Assembly (NCBI GenBank): GCA_903813345.2
Contig: CAIIXF020000011.1
Location: 19,203,754-19,267,753, forward strand
DNA length: 64,000 bases
Direction of reading: 5' to 3'
Source of the DNA: Owenia fusiformis
Lineage: Eukaryota > Annelida > Polychaeta > Sabellida > Oweniidae
This document shows positions 31,809-53,700 of this stretch, in pieces (position 1 is the first letter of the stretch; each line of letters starts with the position of its first letter). The notes under the pieces were generated by a model. It made no database searches and was not told the DNA's origin. It was given only the letters and a program-made list of their open reading frames with translations. A program made the translations under genes and the position numbers.

Positions 31809-34800
31809 ATGTCCGGTGCAGGAGCAACAGCAAGAATTTCATCAAAGCCACAGACTCTAGAGGATGCATATTCCCCTCCAGCTAATTTTCTAGAAATTGA
31901 TGTCACAAACGCTGAAACACATGGAATTGGCAAAAAAAGATACACTGACTATGAAGTTAGAATGAGGGTAAGAAAATTTGCTTTGATCAGAACTAGAGTC
32001 CATTTTATTGTTTAACTGCGTCAGTAAAAGCTAAAAATAAGAAATCAAAATATCATTTTGCAATAATATATGGGAAAATATATTCCTATTGTACATGAAT
32101 GACATTTGTATATCTTGGATTGCTTCTAGTTTGGCTTGTAAAGTGTGTGTGGCCTCTTATATTTGGATGCTTTCTTGTGCAGTGTGCAAATAATAAACTA
32201 GTCAATAGATGTCTCAGTCATATAGCCAGTCTATACTATAACTATGTATCAATTTTATTCTATTCATGTCTTATAGATTTACTCACTTCGAGAGCCATGT
32301 TAGATTTTGAAACTTATGGCTCTCAAACGGAGAAGTGAACAGCTGATCAATAGTGACCTTTGAAATCGAATTAAGTCGATCCGCGGCTTACTTTTGGTCT
32401 CTAACTGTGTCTTACATCAGTATCATCAATCCGTGTAAGTATTGGAGCGCTGGAGTACTTCTTTTTCGATCAAGACTTGTAAATTGTTCATCGAGTTAAA
32501 GTTTTATAGACCTATTTCCAATATGGCGGTTTGCTAGATGGAGATACGCAACGAACGAAATGAATTTTGAGAATTAGTTAGGTTCGGACAACCTCCGGAG
32601 ATTTACGAAAATGTCCGAGCAGAAACCGCCATATTGGAATTTGGCAGTAAAACGATTCACTCGACTAACAATTACAAGTCTTGATCGAAAAAGAAGTACT
32701 CAAGCGCTCCAATACTTACACGATGATTTTTATAATTGAGTTCTTTAGATGGAAGTCAAGTTCTGAACATTCAAAGTTGTATAGCAACTATTCAGTAATA
32801 AATGCAGTTTTGAACCTTGTGACAAGATACAATTTATGGCGATATATTGATGAATATTTTTTGAATTATGACCTGATGCCCAAATGTGCGTGGAAACGGA
32901 TTGTTAAAGCACGCATAATGCAGTATGAAGAAGACAGATGGCACTTGTTATGTAACATATCTTACAGACTTAGCGTTTATAGAACGATACAAGTTACGAT
33001 AAAACCATGCGTATGGTGGAGAATCTGTCAATGGAATTGTAAATATATAGGGATGTGTAGGGATATGGTAAAACTACTAACAGGTGCTTTCCCACTCAAC
33101 TATGACACTATTTGTCCTCTGTGTGGGATGACAAATGAAACGACAAGGCATTTTCTCTTAGATTGCCTTGAACTTCATGAAAGTAGGAGTGACTTGTTGG
33201 CAGTTTTAAGTGACAGAATATTTGATGGATATAATATGGTTGAAAAAATGGAGGTTTTACTAGGAAAAAATGAAGCATTAGACTACAGAATGTATGTGAA
33301 GATAATGTTAAGTGTCAAACACATGTTAAAAACAAGAGCTGCAGCTATAGCTCTATAAACTATTAAATCAACACAGTTTGCGTTGTAAATATATATATTT
33401 TTATTTTTATATTTTTAATATTGCCACATTAACTTTATAATTATTATGTACTCATCTGCATAGGTGGAAATAAAGATACATAAACATAAACATACACGGA
33501 TTGATGATACTGATGTAAGACACAGTTAGAGACCAAAAGTAAGCCGCAGATCGACTTAATTCGATTTCAAAGGTCACGATCATTGAGCTGTCCAAATGCT
33601 CCGTGGGAAAGCTATTATATCAAAATCCAAATAGCTTTCGCAGGAAGTAATTATAGATGTCTCTGTTAAATTATTGTATGCATGTATTTTATTTGTTACA
33701 CTTTTTACCATAGATTTTATTAAACACTTGTCAGAGAATAGCGCTTGCGCTAATGTTTTTTGTACACTATAACCGACGTAAAATAAATATTATCTTATCT
33801 TATGCTTCTCTGCCATGTTATTTTCAATAAGATTAACAAGGCTGAAATTCTTCAAATTACAAGACGGCACAGGCTTATTGCCCAAAAACTAAAAAATCTG
33901 AAATATACAAATGTCATTCATGTACATTATGAATACTGTATACTTTTCCATATATTATTGCACAATGGTCTCCCAATTTCTTATTTTTGCCGTTCTACTG
34001 ACGCAATGAAGCAGTGAAATGGACTCTAGTCTAGGGTGAAGGGGTATAATGTTGGTGTCATTTCATTTCAATTAGGGATAACTTCGACGCATGGGGTAAC
34101 TTGACACCTTTTTCTTTATTTGCTCTATTTTCTGATCTTGGGTAAGCCATTTTTTTCTTTCGCATGGATTGAGATCTTGAGAATTTCTAGTTTCTTGCTA
34201 GTAAGTCTTGAAGTTACCCCATATCTCATATCAACATTACCCCACAAGTCGAAGTTATACCCCTTTGCCTTACTTATCAAGCAACACATTAGGTTGAAAT
34301 GAATGCTGGAGATTTCATTGAGACAACAGATCTTAATTATTATGTTATTGGGTCAATCAAAAGCAGAGTTACAAAGGTCCTCCCTCTGGAATATTTGTTG
34401 TTGTGACAGAGACGTCACTAATTCCTCACCAGTTAATTTTCATATTCACTAATGTGCAGACTACGCATTAATTAATATAGTTATTTAATTGAATTCTGGT
34501 TTCTCTCTCATAAATGTTTTATTTTAGCAGTAAATAGGAACATGTTTTTATTTCCCTGATTCTGGAGTCAGTTTATCAATAAATATAACGGGTCATACTT
34601 CAAATTACATGTATACCTACTGTTGTCAGCTTTATCTCCTATTGCTTAAACCATACAAAACCATACATATATGTAAGCGTCTCTTGATAAAACCACAAAA
34701 TAGCTGAGCAGAAATATAATGATGTTTCTTAAAATCCCGTAGAAACAATAACCACAGTTCGTTTAGGCTACATGATCATTTTCTTTCATATTGGCTTTTT

Positions 34801-36111
34801 CTTGTGATGTGACGTAAACAGACAAACAAAACCAGAGATTACCGGAAACCAAATCCAAACATTATCTTTCCAATCAGAAAATTTGAATTAATTGTCCCGG
34901 AAAAACTCCATTTACAGCGTCAATAATTAATATCATGATATCAAGTAACCATTGTAGACAATCCTCAGGGAATAACATATCATGGAAATATTTTTGATAC
35001 ATTTAGTATTACAACAATTTAAGGTAAACAACTAGCATGATTTTTGTTGCTTGTTATATTTTTCAGACAAACCTACCAATATTCCGCGTGAAAGAATCAA
35101 GTGTAAGGAGAAGGTACAGTGAGTTTGAATGGCTGCGAGTTGAACTAGAGAGAGATAGTAAAGTAAGTTTGTGCTCCAAAATATACTTTATTTACCCAGA
35201 ATTCATCTGTTTTACCAAGGTGTTTCTGAGAAAACCATTTTCTACTTTTTGATGAACGCTGACTATCCAAATTGAAAGTCAACACAATTTTAAAAACGGA
35301 CCCTAGGATATTTAATGACAATGCTTATCTTATAATTTGGCCATATGTGATCCTGCTGATTAAAAAGATACTGTCTTTAATTATTGACTTGAAGAGACTA
35401 AATTCCATATCAAACTTTTGATTTCATTATCATCTCCAGAAGTGCCCTTCTGACATGTATGTACTATTAAAATAACTATCCTTTTTTCCTATCCAGATAG
35501 TAGTGCCCCCTCTCCCAGGAAAAGCACTATCAAAGCAACTACCATTTCGAAATGACGATGGCATTTTTGAAGACGACTTTGTTGAGGAACGACGAAAGGG
35601 ATTAGAACAATTTATAAATAAGTAAGTGACATATTTCCCAAAATTGAGAAACACGTGTTTGTAAATGAGAATTAATTTTTATTCATAGTGCTTGAAAATG
35701 ATTTGTTTACGTCTCATATTTGACATTGAGTGCATGGTATGCAACTAGAAAACGTTGATACTATGATTCGCCTAAATGTTTCGCCTAAATGTTGAAAATA
35801 TATTGTGAATAACTGTTATTGTCTGATTCTTTAAAGAAAACACTGAAAATGGTTGCTTACTTTATTACGCAGTATAGTAATGATCTATATGCAGGGACAC
35901 GTAATGCATACTTTCTGAAATACATGTACCATAAAGTTATGACATGCATCTTGTCTTTTGTCTTGTATCAACTTGTTAAATTCTGAATTTTGGTCTGCAT
36001 TCTAGGGCAGCGAACCATCCACTGGCTCAGACTGAAAAGAGTATGCATATCTTCTTACTGGATGACATCATCAATAAGGATTACATGCCTGGGAAAATTC
36101 GTACGGCATAA
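31809..36111 (+). CDS. SNX3: Sorting nexin 3 type PX protein, isoform with last exon 4a
   Basis: Exons 31809-31967, 35067-35162, 35497-35621 and 36006-36111 give 161 residues (human SNX3 has 162). Almost the whole protein is a PX domain. Visible PI3P-binding elements are RRRYSEFEWL (exon 2), VVPPLPGKA (exon 3) and EERRKGLEQFINK (exon 3). The N terminus SKPQTLEDAYSPPANFLEID matches the SNX3/SNX12 signature. In other animals SNX3 recruits retromer to early endosomes for recycling cargo such as Wntless. The ATG sits in AAAAATG context. Exon 4a encodes AANHPLAQTEKSMHIFLLDD and ends KIRTA. No canonical AATAAA is obvious just after 36111. Two further complete last exons follow at 36661 and 38882. 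Only one SNX3/12-type gene is seen here. Confidence 0.95.
32339..33597. mobile_element. Foldback element in SNX3 intron 1, interrupted by a LINE
   Basis: Outer arms 32339-32460 and 33490-33597 are inverted copies (GACCTTTGAAATCGAATTAA; ACTTTTGGTCTCTAACTGTG). Inner arms 32439-32540 and 32615-32722 are also inverted copies (AAGTACTTCTTTTTCGATCA; CCAATATGGCGGTTT). Without the 775-bp LINE, the element is one near-perfect hairpin of roughly 480 bp. It encodes nothing of its own. Confidence 0.8.
32723..33497 (+). mobile_element. 5'-truncated LINE insertion (reverse-transcriptase C terminus)
   Basis: An open frame running to 33358 encodes a zinc-knuckle-like CPLCGMTNETTRHFLLDC, common near the C terminus of several LINE clades. 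About 140 bases of 3' UTR follow, ending ATAAACATAAACATACACG. The short sequence TACACG flanks both sides (before 32723 and at about 33492-33497), a likely 6-bp target duplication. The frame is intact but only the C-terminal part of the polyprotein is present. Confidence 0.75.
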
Positions 36112-36348
36112 ATGGAAAAACAATATGCAGTGATTCTTATACAAACAATGTTATTAATCTTTTTACTCAATGTGTATCTATATTTTTCCAATTTGCACTT
36201 TTAGGTTGATGGTGTTTCAAATTTATTTTCTCATGAATATGCATAAAACCCTCTGTTATGTGTAAGCATATGCACATAGTCAGTGAGCTTGTATTTTAGG
36301 TTTGACGTTTGCGCTTGTCAAGCATTGTTGCACTTTACTGAATCTAGA

Positions 36349-36660
36349 AAACAGATTGCTTAATTTCAGGACTGGGGCCAATTCCCTTGATATCAAGAAT
36401 AATATACCTCCATATGACCATTCCCACCCTCAAGCTTCTACCTTTTTAGAGGTCAAGGATTAAAGCTTTGCCCAGGTGTAAAAAAACTGCTTTATTTCAG
36501 GACTGAGGCCAATTCCCTTAATAACGAGAGTTACCTCCATGTAACCATTTGCACTAAAACATTTATGATTTAGTTCCAATGACCCTCTGCCCTTTTAGAG
36601 GTAAAGGGTGTTAAAGCTTTGTCCAGATGTAATCTAGGATAAAACTGTGCTTAATTTCAG
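36349..36660 (+). pseudogene. Two decayed copies of the SNX3 last exon
   Basis: Acceptor-plus-exon-start segments recur at 36370 (TTAATTTCAG|GACTGGGGCCAATT) and 36501 (TTATTTCAG|GACTGAGGCCAATT). They parallel the intact exon 4b start at 36661 (TTAATTTCAG|GATTGCGGGCCATC). Flanks such as TTTTAGAGGT and TTAAAGCTTTG are also repeated. The two copies have lost the reading frame. They record tandem duplication of about 131-160 bp steps. Confidence 0.7.
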
Positions 36661-36766
36661 GATTGCGGGCCATCCCCTTGCAGAAAATGAGAAATGCCTG
36701 CACATGTTTCTCCTGGAACAAGTTATTGACAAAAATTATGTTCCTGGAAAAGTTCGCAATTCCTAA
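36661..36766 (+). CDS. SNX3: SNX3 alternative last exon 4b
   Basis: This 106-nt exon has the same length and entry phase as 4a and 4c. It starts after TTAATTTCAG and encodes (K)IAGHPLAENEKCLHMFLLEQ, then VIDKNYVPGKVRNS and a stop. The frame is intact and family-conserved residues (GHPLA, EKCLHMFL, VPGK) are kept. It would replace 4a or 4c by alternative terminal-exon choice. No canonical poly(A) signal is obvious nearby. Confidence 0.85.
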
Positions 36767-37700
36767 GCAATTATTCGTCCATTGGTGATGCTTAGACAAC
36801 TAATTTGCCAGACAAAACAGACTTTTGGAAGTGGGATTTTTGGTTTGAAAAAATAGTTCCTTTAAAATGATTTTGGCACTATTTTGTCAACAAAACAACC
36901 TCTAACTTTCCACCAACAAACAATTATGAGCAGAATTTTTAGTATCTATATATATTCTCAATGTACTAACCATCTTCTGCACCAGAAAATCTAATTCACT
37001 ATACTGTACATTATAATACTGGACAATATTTGTGTGAATAACATGAAATAGTAGACTTGTAAACAAGATTTTATTTTCTTTTAACGTTTTATACCATACC
37101 ATTTGCTTTGTCCGTCTTTGTGTATTACTGTTTCCTTGGAAAATAGATTGTATGTTATATTCTTCAACAATTTTGTTTTGTTGTTTACTTTTTGTTACAA
37201 CATAATTTGTTGTATTTATTCTAACTCTTCACTAACTTCTCAAACTGCCTTGTTTCCTCTCTATTTTTATTATTTTTTCTTTTCTTTATTGTTCTTATTC
37301 TAAAAGTATTTATTTCCTCTTGCTGCATGTTATTCCCTCCAAATTGTCCTGCACTTGATTTTTATATTTCTGCTCAGAGTGTATTTTCTCACTCATAATG
37401 TTTGTTTTGCTCAAATCTTGTGAACTTTAGGTAATAATGCGATCAAGTACAGTATACTAATTCCAAATAATACAGACCCCATAAGACAATCCTGGGATGA
37501 ACCATTCAATGCAAACACACACTAGATAATTGATTGCTTATTTCAGGAAATTATAGCAGCATGCACAGATATATTAAGATAATAGGAATGACTCACACTG
37601 CCCCCCCCCCCCACCCTCAATATATCACAGTGTTGGAATAGTCAGCCCACTTTAATGTATTAATACTATTGTAACAATGGTACTATTTCATAGACACTGT

Positions 37701-37950
37701 CAATGTGGCACCATTTCATAAACAGTGGCACCATTGCATAAAAAGTGGCACCATTGCATAAACAGTGACATCATTTCATAAACAGTGGCATCATTTCATA
37801 AACAGTGGCAACATTGAATAAACAGTGGCACCATTGCATAAACAGTGGCACCATTGCATAAATATTGGCACCATTTCATAAACAGTGGCACCATTGCATA
37901 AATATTGGCAATACTGCATAAACAATGATAATATTGCATAAACAGTGGCA
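37701..37950. repeat. 20-bp minisatellite between SNX3 exons 4b and 4c
   Basis: Units of AACAGTGGCACCATTGCATA repeat about 12 times with an exact 20-bp period and point variants. Confidence 0.9.
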
Positions 37951-38090
37951 ATATTGTTGCATAAGTGTTTGCATCAAATTTGAAATGTTTTAGATAGAGG
38001 GATGGTGTTGTTACAATGTTGTGATATGTCATTGATCAGTAGGCCAATCAATAAGAATTTCTTAGATCAATTCACAAAATTTAATTGCCT

Positions 38091-38189
38091 TTTACAATTC
38101 CTGAAAATCAATTGGCTTTTATAATTTGTACAAAGACTTACACTATTAGTACAAATTGTAAAAGCCAATTGATTTTCAGGAATTGTAAT
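38091..38189. repeat. Perfect-looking 40-bp hairpin between SNX3 exons 4b and 4c
   Basis: The left arm 38092-38131 and right arm 38149-38188 pair with one mismatch (ATTCCTGAAAATCAATTGGC against its complement), with a 17-base loop. Weaker pairing continues outward. It may be a small MITE or a transcribed stem. Confidence 0.75.
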
Positions 38190-38633
38190 TTGCAATGATT
38201 TTTGAGAAACATAACCCATCTAGGTAAAAGCTACTCTTGCATCAAAACCTTGCTTTACCCCACTTTTTGACACATGTGCCTCTGAATAGGAACAATGTAG
38301 GAGCCAGAGTAAGATGCAAGCATGCAAGGTCTAATAATCTTCATGATTGTTTTGAGTTTCAGAGGAAACTTTCATCAAGCCTAGCTGTACTTTCAAATTT
38401 CTACATTACTGCATTATGCACAATACCCACTCTCCAGCATAACAGCCATGTACTTTGACACCGAATTAAGGATTTAAATATGTTCCTTAAATCTTATCTT
38501 TGCAGATACAGTATCACAAGTTTGAAGTCTATGAGCAAATATTTAATTCAGCACTTTTGCATACCATTCATTGGAAAACTTACAGCATATCTTACTGTTA
38601 TCTCAGTTCAGACTAAAAGTTGTGATACTATTC

Positions 38634-38830
38634 CTGTTATCCCAAGATGCACTATTATTTTCCCAGAATGCATTACTTGTACCAATAATGCACAATTATT
38701 ACCTATGTACATATTTATATAGTGCTGTATTATTATACCCCAGAATCAAACCTGATTTTAATGATATTACTATCTCCCAGAATATGTGATACATTTTCCC
38801 AGAATGCATTGCATTACTATTTACCCATAA
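38634..38830. repeat. Degenerate repeats of TTCCCAGAATGCAT before exon 4c
   Basis: TTCCCAGAATGCATT occurs near 38660 and 38796, with partial forms CCCAAGATGCACT, CTCCCAGAATATG and CCCATAATGCACT between and after. The motif resembles the ZNF143/STAF core and the ends of the hairpin at 17134. It ends about 50 bases before the exon 4c acceptor. Confidence 0.5.
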
Positions 38831-38881
38831 TGCACTATGATTCTCCTCACACTGCTTTTACACATCCCTCTTGCTTTTCAG

Positions 38882-38987
38882 GGTTGCTGGACACCCATTA
38901 GCGCAGAATGAAAAATGTTTACATATTTTTCTTCAAGAACCTATAATAGATAGAAACTATGTACCAGGAAAGATTCGTCAGGTCTGA
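38882..38987 (+). CDS. SNX3: SNX3 alternative last exon 4c (most canonical)
   Basis: This 106-nt exon after GCTTTTCAG encodes (K)VAGHPLAQNEKCLHIFLQEP, then IIDRNYVPGKIRQV and a stop. It is the version closest to human SNX3 (VAGHPLAQNERCLHMFLQ). AATAAA at about 39062 is a good poly(A) signal 75 bases after the stop. It lies 2.2 kb beyond exon 4b. Confidence 0.9.
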
Positions 38988-39852
38988 GTATATAACGAAC
39001 CTTGAACGTTCAATGGAATTATTGCAATCGCTGAAGGAATGTACAGTATATGATATTGTTAAATAAACAACAATTAAAAGAAGCTTCTGTGTATGTAATA
39101 TGTATATATAACTGGACTCTAGGATACACTGTATGTATAAATGTGTGTGATAACATCAGATAGAATTAATCTCAGATAGACGATCTATTTGACCTTGATT
39201 TTGATTTAGTGGATAGTGCCATCTATGAGAATGCCATGAGTGCCATCTATGTGGAATTTGCTTACTAGTCGGCAGTTCCATCCACTGACCCAGTATCGGG
39301 GGATCGGGTGTTGTTTCCGAGCTCGTAGCCAGCTTTTGCTAAGGGGGGGGGTCACTTTTCTTAATTCAAGGGTGGGTTGGTTCAAATTTAACAATTTGGT
39401 CTCAAAATCACATGAAAAGTGCTCAAAATGGTAAAAACTGCATGCATGATTTTGAAAGAACTTTTGGCAGCTTTAACCCCTCCCCTTTCTGGCGACGGGC
39501 TTGGTTTCCTTACGCAATTGGTCATAATGTAATAAATCTGTGTCTGATCTTTGGGATGTTGATCATTCAGTTCTATGAATTGGATATACTTTACATGTTG
39601 AATGAAACCAGTGCACATATTGGTGAACACCTTTGCTATTGAAGTTTATATACAGTATTATATTATAGGTCAAACGAGAAACAATAATATACATTAGTAT
39701 GATGTAATACTAGTATGAATACTTAGAGGTGTTCACCAAAATAGGTGTTACTGTATTTAGGTCAGATTAATTGATATTTGTATTGTGCCTACTTTGTGGG
39801 TCTTTTCATTTGATACTGTAGAAGTCCATAATACATCCATGTTTTTTATTTT

Positions 39853-41456: not shown

Positions 41457-42240
41457 AAAAATGTTAAATAAACTCCCATATATCATCCAGACTTCCTTTC
41501 AACATTTAGCCATTAACAGGACATAGTCCCAAACAACATGTATAATTGACCCCTGTACAATATCTACAATTAGACTCCCATATAATGTTTAAAACAGACT
41601 CCCAAACAATGTATACTATAGTGTCCCATAAAATATGTGTAAGAGACCCTTACAACATAGACTATAGACTCCCATACAATATGTACAATAGTCTCCCATA
41701 GAATGTGTACAATAGACTCCCATACAATATGTACAATATACTCCCATGTAGCATGTACAATAGACTCTCATTCAACTTGTACAATAGACTTCCATACAAT
41801 ATGTACAATAGACTCACGTACAACATGTATAATATGACTTCCATAAAATATGTACAATAGACTCCCTTACAACATGTATAATATGACTTCCACACAATAT
41901 GTACAAAAGACTCCCAAACAATATGTACTATAGTCTCCCATACAATATGTATAAGAGATCCTTACAAAATGTACAATATGACTTCCATACAACATGTACA
42001 ATGGACTCATATACAACATGTACAATAGACTCCTATACAACATGTACAATAGACTCCCATTCAACATGTTCAATAGACTCCCATATAACATCTTCAATAG
42101 ACTCCCATACAATATGTACAATAGACTCCCATTCAACTTGTACAATAGACTTCCATACAATATGTACAATATGACTCCTGTACAACATGTACAATTAGAC
42201 TTTCATTCAACATATTCAGTTCGTTTTCCTGTAAATAGAC
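41457..42240. repeat. 24-bp minisatellite array, about 30 units
   Basis: Units of the type TACAATATGTACAATAGACT plus CCCA repeat with changes over about 780 bp. The period is a multiple of three and stop-poor, so several frames stay open on both strands. Confidence 0.9.
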
Positions 42241-42672
42241 GCCCGTGCAATATGTGCAATGGACTCACATACATACAAGACAATAGAATTACATACAATA
42301 TGTTTATTAGACGCCTGTGCAATATGTGCAATGGATTCACATACATACAAGACAATTGAATTACATACAATATGTTTATTAGATGCCCGTGCAATATGTG
42401 CAATGGACTCACATACATACAAGACAATAGAATTACATACAATATGTTTATTAGATGCCCGTGCAATATGTGCAATGGATTCACATACATACAAGACAAT
42501 AGAATTACATACAATATGTTTATTAGATGCCCGTGCAATATGTGCAATGGATTCACATACATACAAGACAATAGAATTACATACAATATGTTTATTAGAT
42601 GCCCGTGCAATATGTGCAATGGACTCACATACATACAAGACAATAGAATTACATACAATATGTTTATTACAA
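42241..42672. repeat. 72-bp higher-order repeat, six near-identical copies
   Basis: The six units start at 42241, 42313, 42385, 42457, 42529 and 42601 (GCCCGTGCAATATGTGCAAT). They differ by only a few bases, such as GGACTC/GGATTC. Seventy-two is three times the 24-bp unit of the adjacent older array, so this is a recent homogenised expansion of it. Confidence 0.95.
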
Positions 42673-50700: not shown

Positions 50701-53700
50701 GTAGTCAGCTTCAAATTGTATTTAAATTAAGGTATTCCAGCTGAAACATGAAAGAAATAACAGAAGATTCTAAGATATGGATCAGTAATAATAAAATACT
50801 GGCAAAAACTGGTCCAAACCTAGATATCCAAATGCTACTCTCTGAATGATGTTCATCAGAACACATCCATATGCTAATTTTCTGCCAACTATGTCAATTA
50901 TTTTTCAGTTTTGAAATATTTTCACCAATGTCCTTTAACTATACAAAATCATCTGGCCCTGTACTGTATATTGAAATTTACGAAACATTATTGATGATAC
51001 TTTGATTATTTTTTCAGATTTATTACAATGTACAAACGAGCCAAATGTCTCAATACCACAAATGGCAGACCTCCTGATAGAAAGAACACAAGACAAAAAC
51101 TGGACCATTGTATTTAAGGCTCTTATCACAGTTCACAACCTCATGAATAATGGCAATGAAGTAAGTTGACAACCTCATGAATAATAGCAATGAAGTAAGG
51201 TCACAACCTTAAGAATAATGGCAATGAAGTAAGTTGACAACCTCATGAATAAAAGCAATGAAGTAAGTTGACAACCTCATGAATAATGGCAATGAGGTAA
51301 GTTCACAACCTCATGAAGAATGGCAATGGAGTAAGTTGACAACCTCATGAATAATAGCAATGAAGTAAGTTCACAACCTCATGAATAATAGCAGTGAAGT
51401 TAGTTCACAACCTCATGAATAATGGCAATGAGGTAAGTTCACTACCTCATGAAGAATAGCAGTGAAGTAAGTTGACAACCTCATGAATAATAGCAATGAA
51501 GCAAGTTCACAACCTCATGAGTAATGGCAATGAAGTAAGTTGACAACCTCATGAAAACTAGCAATGAAGTAAGTTTACAACCTCATGAATAATAGCAGTG
51601 AAGTAAGTTCACAACCTCATGAATAATTGCAGTGAAGTAAGTTTACAACCTCATGAATAATTGCAGTGAAGTAAGTTTACAACCTCATGAATAATAGCAA
51701 TGAAGTAAGTTTACAACCTCTTGAATAAATTGTAAATTCACAACCTCATGAATAATAGCAATGAATTAAGTTCATATCCTCATGAATTATGGCAATGGAG
51801 TTAGTTTACAACCTCTTGAATAATTTCAATGAAGTAAGTTTATACCTCATGAATGATAGCAATAAGCAATGTATAATGGCAATGAAGTAAGTCCATAACC
51901 TCTTAAAGAATAATGGCAATGAAGTGTCACCACCACCGAATAATGGCACGTTTGTCTGGAATGATAGTAATGCATTACTACCTGTGAAGTATAGGCACAA
52001 CCTTGTAGATATTGACAATGAGGTAATTCCTCTGCCTATTGAATACCAATGAGGTAAGCTTATTACCTAATGTATGCCTTTGGCTTTAATGAGGTCATAG
52101 ATTATTATTACACTCAGTTATATTCATTAGTTAACACTGAATAATGACACTGAGGTTTATCCTTAACCTCCGGATGAATGGCAGAGTTGAATAATGAGTA
52201 ACCTTCATGACATCTTTCATTGCCCCTTTAAATCTTTTTGAATTATTAACATGTTTGGATTTATAAATAGATAATAAATTGAAATTGAAAAATAAATTGA
52301 CTTTGAATATATTTAGGCTAATTAATTCATTAATTTGTGTTAATTTCTTTAATTGCAGAGGTTTTCACAGTATTTGGCATCTAACAATTGCAGATTCAAC
52401 CTGGGTACATTTCTTGATAAAAGCGGAGTTCAAGGTTGGTATTCATCTTCCATAGTATACTAGTCTTATCTGGACTAAGTTACTGTCCCTCTCTTTGTGT
52501 GTGTGTTTTGATCTATCAATTAAATGGAATTTTGTATCACATTGGTGATTTTATGGAAGTGATTCAAACAAATTTTCTCAATTTTGTGTGAAATTTTCAA
52601 GCTTGATTTACCCTAATTCAGCATCCTCAGGCCAGATATTGATAACGTAAGATCATTCCTCAATTTGCAGGTCAAAAAGATGCAATCAATACCCTCAATG
52701 TGCTGATTTCTGTAAAAATCATTTTAAATCACTGGTTAATTAAAAAATAATCATTTTATTAATTCGATCAATAGATATTCTCATCGAGTGTCTGATATTT
52801 TACAAATAGATGTTCCCATCCCAGAACTTATTTTCTTGTCTTTCTATGCGTGCTTTAAAACTATGCAGTTTTCATTGTTTCCTGATTTCCTTATTTTGGC
52901 GAAATAATTCTGATTATCTCCAGGCACTTACCTCCAAAACTTATTTTTCTGAAACTGAGCCCAGATAACTGGTGATAAAGGGGGAATAATATATGGTGTT
53001 TCATAGATTGATCAAATATGCCATATTCAAATATGATGAAATGTTTGTGTAACTTTATCAAAATGCTCTTCACTTGCTGGTTATCCTTTGATGAGGATTT
53101 TTTCAACTTTGTGAATGACACAGTATTATTGTATATTGTCTTGTGACCCTTGTGAGCTTTCAATGAGAAGATATGTTCAACAGACCGAGATCAACGGTCA
53201 AAATCGTCAAGGTTTAAATTCATAAAATTTGTAAAAATTATTCTATGTGCTATATTTCGGTTATGTTTTAAAAATGATAATTGGTTGTAATGAGAGGCTT
53301 GTTATTATTTAATGATCAGCTTATCCAAGAAATGTGGAATTTCATTCAGTGTAAAGAGATAACTGTAGAGGACAGCATGATCCGAAAGTGATATGTATGA
53401 GGCACGGGTCTATGTAGTGGATTCTCTGTTTGTCTCTTGTTAAAGCTTGACTTTGTCCTGGACACAAATGGTTATTGACACCTATGTTACAGTGACACAT
53501 ATTTATCATTTGACACATATTATTATCTCATAGTATAGTGCATACAATTATAAACTCCAGAGGCTGATTGTTGAATCATGAAGTTTACAACTGTCATGAT
53601 TTCATTTTAATACTCAACAGCATGGAGTCTATAATTGTTTTGTTTGTCATTAGATAATATGAAATTTACTCGCTATAATAAGAACAAAGACATTTAAACA

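Follow-up and report, generated by a model that had tools for sequence, protein, structure and literature searches.

We found a complete SNX3/SNX12-type gene on the + strand of the 64,000-nt window (the whole stretch of DNA that was analysed), in which three shared coding exons are followed by three alternative last exons, here called 4a, 4b and 4c (Table 1). The last exons are 106 nt apiece, and all have an AG acceptor and one common phase that matches the exon 3 donor; their first base completes a split lysine codon (AA/G), after which each reads 34 codons and its own stop (TAA, TAA and TGA, respectively). A first-pass annotation of this DNA had proposed three complete interchangeable last exons, and these features bear it out. 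The predicted spliced isoforms via 4a, 4b or 4c are 161 aa apiece from ATG to stop, and all three have a PX-only size (~162 aa) without room for a BAR domain; human SNX3 and SNX12, at 162 aa, are likewise PX-only-sized. Retention of intron 3 would bring an immediate stop (FINK and then the stop codon).

Table 1. Predicted exons and neighbouring features of the SNX3/SNX12-type locus, in window coordinates.
Feature	Position	Strand	Details
Exon 1, coding part	31809..31967	+	ATG 31809; MSGAGATARISSKPQ...YEVRMR; donor AGG/GTAAGA
Exon 2	35067..35162	+	32 codons, phase 0; VRRRYSEFEW motif, PI3P site region
Exon 3	35497..35621	+	125 nt; donor 35621/35622, AA/GTAAGT; contains PPLPGK, EERRKGLEQF
Exon 4a, alternative last exon	36006..36111	+	AANHPLAQTEKSMHIFLLDDIINKDYMPGKIRTA, stop TAA
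CATAAA, possible weak poly(A) signal serving 4a transcripts (putative function)	36242..36247	+	131 nt past the 4a stop
Repeat F1	36341..36479 (approximate ends)	+	4b acceptor region and ~23 nt of exon, then intron-type repeat; not a full exon
Repeat F2	36480..36640 (approximate ends)	+	Second copy of the F1-type unit (4b acceptor region and ~23 nt of exon); not a full exon
Exon 4b, alternative last exon	36661..36766	+	IAGHPLAENEKCLHMFLLEQVIDKNYVPGKVRNS, stop TAA
Exon 4c, alternative last exon	38882..38987	+	VAGHPLAQNEKCLHIFLQEPIIDRNYVPGKIRQV, stop TGA; nearest of the three to human SNX3/SNX12
AATAAA, probable poly(A) signal serving 4c transcripts (putative function)	39062..39067	+	75 nt past the 4c stop

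Exon 1 matched the N-terminus of human SNX3 (57% over 47 aa, E 3e-17, tblastn). In a PDB search with the protein of exons 2-4c, SNX12 came first (E 5e-57) and SNX3 had E 7e-56, both well ahead of the next kind of sorting nexin, SNX11 (E 2e-14). This best match over other sorting nexins places the predicted gene in the SNX3/SNX12 subfamily. The available text of PMC12024572 names residues 69-71 of SNX3 as critical for PI3P binding and residue 72 as a phospho-site; human residues 69-72 map to the common exon 2, so that the predicted PI3P-critical region (69-71) falls outside the alternative exons. The 32 codons of exon 2 are also the size of the segment missing from the human/mouse isoform SNX3-130, which, according to the same source, excludes exon 2 of four.

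According to the first-pass annotation, the last exons also encode different yet homologous PX-domain ends, and the PDB confirms this: searched alone, 4a, 4b and 4c each had human SNX3/SNX12 as best match (E 1.9e-8, 1.8e-13 and 3.7e-14, respectively). Pfam searches with single exons gave only a sub-threshold UPF0147 hit for 4a (E 0.15) and no match for 4b or 4c. When every one of the 63,896 34-codon frames on each strand of the window was scored against a profile, the three exons stood out (z = 14.1 for 4b, 14.0 for 4c and 12.8 for 4a, with next-best scores of 4.3 on the + strand and 4.7 on the - strand), and no fourth last-exon copy was found on either strand. The profile was built from 4a, 4b and 4c together with human SNX3 and thus includes the three exons themselves, so that independent evidence comes from the PDB search. 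Amino acid identity is 18/34 between 4a and 4b, 20/34 between 4a and 4c and 24/34 between 4b and 4c, and 14 of the 34 residues are identical across all three and human SNX3. Identity to human SNX3 falls from 4c (24/34) through 4b (21/34) to 4a (20/34). Within the first 30 residues of the last exon, human SNX3 and SNX12 agree at 23, and of these common positions 20 are kept in 4c, 19 in 4b and 14 in 4a; by these alignments 4a has diverged most. At the DNA level a resemblance is visible between 4b and 4c (score 52, maximum of 300 shuffles 31), and neither 4a-4b (score 21, maximum 26) nor 4a-4c (score 27, maximum 28) rose above 300 shuffles; because the DNA scores of 4a stay within the shuffles, its kinship emerges only in the protein comparison. 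The flanks of 4a, 4b and 4c had no convincing mutual similarity in six comparisons, in which 18 to 429 of 500 shuffles reached the score, the lowest figure (18/500) being that for the regions downstream of 4b and 4c.

Relatives elsewhere were few. At E up to 10, exons 2-4c found 10 places in the assembly, and five of these are exons of the SNX3/12 gene itself; the remainder comprise two PX regions (C6 and C12) that are 42% identical and three weak places with E above 0.6. We take the C6 and C12 regions, from their translations, to be SNX9/18/33-like and SNX7/30-like. The 4b peptide found three places in the assembly, all of them 4a, 4b and 4c. There were 17 PX matches in the assembly, and no second SNX3/12 copy appeared among the best-scoring candidates of the assembly searches; because these searches score best candidates only, a single SNX3/12 copy in the assembly is supported rather than proved. 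The viral contigs searched for relatives gave no match, and the prokaryote genome contigs gave 1 distant locus (on a bacterial MAG contig, L018), with 52% identity over residues 44-69 of a 76-aa query, which is uninformative for animals. A COX1 search of the assembly gave no match.

We compared the three exons codon position by codon position (34 sites each) and found differences at first, second and third positions of 13, 4 and 24 for 4a-4b, 10, 8 and 24 for 4a-4c, and 8, 4 and 24 for 4b-4c. Third positions thus differ at 24/34 in all three pairs, near saturation, as against 17, 18 and 12 differences, respectively, at the 68 first and second positions (third vs. first/second positions, Fisher p=1.4e-5 for 4a-4b, p=3.5e-5 for 4a-4c and p=4.2e-7 for 4b-4c). 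Estimated dN was 0.32 (4a-4b), 0.29 (4a-4c) and 0.19 (4b-4c); with third positions near saturation, NG86 returned no dS. In neutral simulations, in which decay started from one exon and ran down to the observed nucleotide identity of the pair, the frame stayed open and amino acid identity was no lower than observed in 4, 0 and 0 of 20,000 runs. As third positions are near saturated and first and second positions far less changed, all three exons appear to have been under protein-level constraint for a long time, and because the 4a-4b pair, without 4c, gives the same pattern, this constraint is not owed to 4c alone. The codon-position contrast and the neutral simulations, taken as sequence evidence, show long-term protein-level constraint on 4a, 4b and 4c, and selection, which had been suggested earlier from kept family residues, is upheld by them.

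The splicing and 3' end signals of the three exons are unequal. Pyrimidines occupy 11/17 of the acceptor positions from -20 to -4 for 4a, 9/17 for 4b and 14/17 for 4c, so that the 4b tract is poor and equals those of the F1 and F2 repeats described below. Canonical AATAAA or ATTAAA hexamers were absent within 300 nt past the 4a and 4b stops; the nearest are an ATTAAA 348 nt past the 4a stop and an AATAAA 1,051 nt past the 4b stop. We considered whether 4c alone is used, with 4a and 4b being decaying exon copies; in favour of this, 4c has the top polypyrimidine tract of the three, the sole AATAAA less than 100 nt past a stop, and the sequence nearest to human SNX3. This reading is improbable, however, in the face of intact frames and of amino acids conserved despite near-saturated third positions in all pairs, 4a-4b included. 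It is likewise unlikely, in our estimate, that the main role of 4a and 4b is to provide acceptors leading to long-3' UTR or nonsense-mediated decay products and thereby to dosage control. Conservation of amino acids is not expected from such a role, and although GTRAG donor-like sites at 36262 and 36283 do lie more than 50 nt past the 4a stop, there is just one GTRAG between 4b and 4c (at 38309, 1.5 kb from 4b), against a background on the + strand of the window of 1.48 per kb.

Two repeat units, F1 and F2, lie in the stretch between 4a and 4b and form, with the 4b acceptor region, one local tandem repeat. Both resemble the 4b intron, acceptor and ~23 nt of exon (0/500 shuffles reached the score in either case), and they are alike also in their downstream intron-like part (0/500 shuffles). 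Their sequence past this point has no similarity to the other 83 nt of 4b (458/500 and 421/500 shuffles reached the score for F1 and F2, respectively), nor does that of F1 to the remainders of 4a and 4c (121/500 and 344/500 shuffles). The fossil copies that the first-pass annotation placed at 36370 and 36501 are therefore not complete exons, there being no trace of the remaining 83 nt of 4b; its description of these copies as frame-lost is inexact as well, in that 31 and 24 codons can be read without a stop from the F1 and F2 acceptors, respectively, with the split lysine codon counted. Since F1 and F2 lack homology past ~23 nt of exon, they hold no record of the origin of 4a, 4b and 4c, which they had been thought to show. 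Genome searches found the repeat unit at this locus and nowhere else in the assembly, and the array is best read as a later, younger partial duplication around the 4b acceptor. One might still suppose, given the tandem kinship of F1, F2 and the 4b acceptor region, that the same local repeat process recently made 4a, 4b and 4c themselves; we hold this to be very improbable, as the repeats contain so little of the exon, F1 and F2 are 84% alike over 50 nt where the three exons have near-saturated third positions, and the flanks of the exons are without convincing similarity. What stands of the earlier interpretation is thus a set of interchangeable last exons under selection in the sole SNX3/12 gene found by the assembly searches; what falls is the account of their origin.

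We consider it highly probable that the locus is a single SNX3/12 orthologue with an anciently tandem-copied last exon, in which exon 3 is spliced to 4a, 4b or 4c. Points against it are the variant or distant hexamers past 4a and 4b, the poor 4b polypyrimidine tract, the divergence of 4a both in DNA and at positions common to human SNX3 and SNX12, and a duplex test (below) that gave nothing above shuffles. The arrangement is most likely a terminal exon triplicated in tandem and used in a mutually exclusive way. The ancestral last exon would have been copied in tandem long ago, exon 3 would join one of the three acceptors, and the chosen exon would give the last 34 codons and the stop. The three 161-aa proteins would have exons 1-3 in common, with the region of the PX domain that binds PI3P, and would differ only in the stretch matching human residues 129-162, where the PX domain ends and the C-terminal tail follows. 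One gene can thus probably make three proteins that differ in their tails. All three last exons may be used in transcripts, exon choice may be coupled to the choice of 3' end, and the tails may tune membrane or partner specificity. The same proteins would result if the choice were simply among acceptors and all transcripts ended at a common distal poly(A) site.

The likely effect of the swap can be narrowed by comparison with what is reported for SNX3. The legend of Figure 2 in PMC12024572, citing Mizutani and others, reports that SNX3 residues 147-162 permit preferential PI5P binding, and SNX3 is described in the available text of PMC7990337 as binding at the VPS26-VPS35 interface with a membrane loop inserted. 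As the PI3P-critical residues lie in the common exon 2 and the PI5P-linked residues 147-162 in the swapped exon, the swap would most plausibly affect how stable the domain end is, along with secondary contacts to membranes or partners. That these PI5P-linked residues sit in the swapped exon would make the locus a natural test of the function of the SNX3 end.

Homologous tandem terminal exons used in a mutually exclusive manner are reported for Drosophila pip and PGRP-LC (PMC9013439, available text), and the last exons here are tandem and homologous too, being adjacent, of equal length and phase, and each ending the frame. Those, however, are different genes in a different lineage, and exclusive use is a prediction here. 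The same source reports competing RNA structures for PGRP-LC, whereas one coarse whole-length duplex test here, in which intron 3 was paired with the sequence ahead of 4b and of 4c, gave no signal beyond shuffles (172/200 and 60/200 shuffles, respectively, were as stable or better). The isoforms described for human/mouse SNX3 in the available text of PMC12024572 arise by exon skipping or truncation, in contrast to the swapping of homologous last exons predicted here. SNX3 and SNX12 are separate vertebrate proteins with 79.5% protein identity, as given in the available part of PMC3376135, in agreement with the first-pass annotation; that pair too has slightly different SNX3-type ends, but from two genes, where here they would be alternative exons of one. 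A human survey, by its available text, left terminal-exon candidates aside (PMC5740500). Among the matches listed, by title and abstract opening, for SNX3/SNX12 isoforms, sorting nexins with mutually exclusive exons and Owenia splicing, there was no description of duplicated SNX3 last exons. This kind of architecture is already known, and an SNX3 last exon in three homologous versions is new in so far as it is not described among those matches.

SNX3 and retromer return Wntless and other cargo from endosomes, and to our knowledge invertebrate SNX3 is usually regarded as a one-form adaptor. If one gene has three selected C-terminal ends, adaptor diversity can arise by splicing. More tentatively, and as something less likely than not, we suggest that the swap of PX end and tail yields three retromer adaptors from one SNX3/12 locus, which would do work that vertebrates gained with SNX3 and SNX12; the arrangement would then be old, as the near-saturated third positions suggest, and might perhaps be present in other annelids or spiralians.

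Within SNX3 intron 1 lies a repeat that, by its appearance, looks like the 3' end of a LINE, and we regard this repeat as young: of the 42 matches listed for it in this genome, 19 show 97-100% identity across 656 nt or more (the window copy is itself among the 42; 40 of 819 candidates were scored). Two 105-nt arms (32336-32440 and 33490-33594; 92% complementary) flank the repeat, and a Pfam search with the open reading frame that overlaps it (32681-33355) returned no domain.

Repeats and hairpin in the window
Feature	Position	Location	Description
Repeat	32723-33380	SNX3 intron 1	LINE 3' end-like
Minisatellite	37705-37950	between SNX3 exons 4b and 4c	20-bp unit, 12.3 copies
Long hairpin	38077-38203		58-nt arms, 11 nt apart, 86% complementary
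Minisatellite	41527-42669		periods 24/48/72 bp
Minisatellite	51130-51863		34-bp unit, 21.8 copies

The minisatellite between the alternative last exons 4b and 4c carries hexamers that resemble poly(A) signals (CATAAA, n = 11; AATAAA, n = 1), and the long hairpin is possibly a small mobile element. Long open frames on both strands cross the minisatellite with 24/48/72-bp periods, part of which is a 72-bp unit repeated six times at 97%. Outside this genome, an SNX3-like PX end (52%) is encoded at positions 5001-5087 of L018, a contig of an Oscillospiraceae MAG, and probably represents eukaryotic contamination of that bin.
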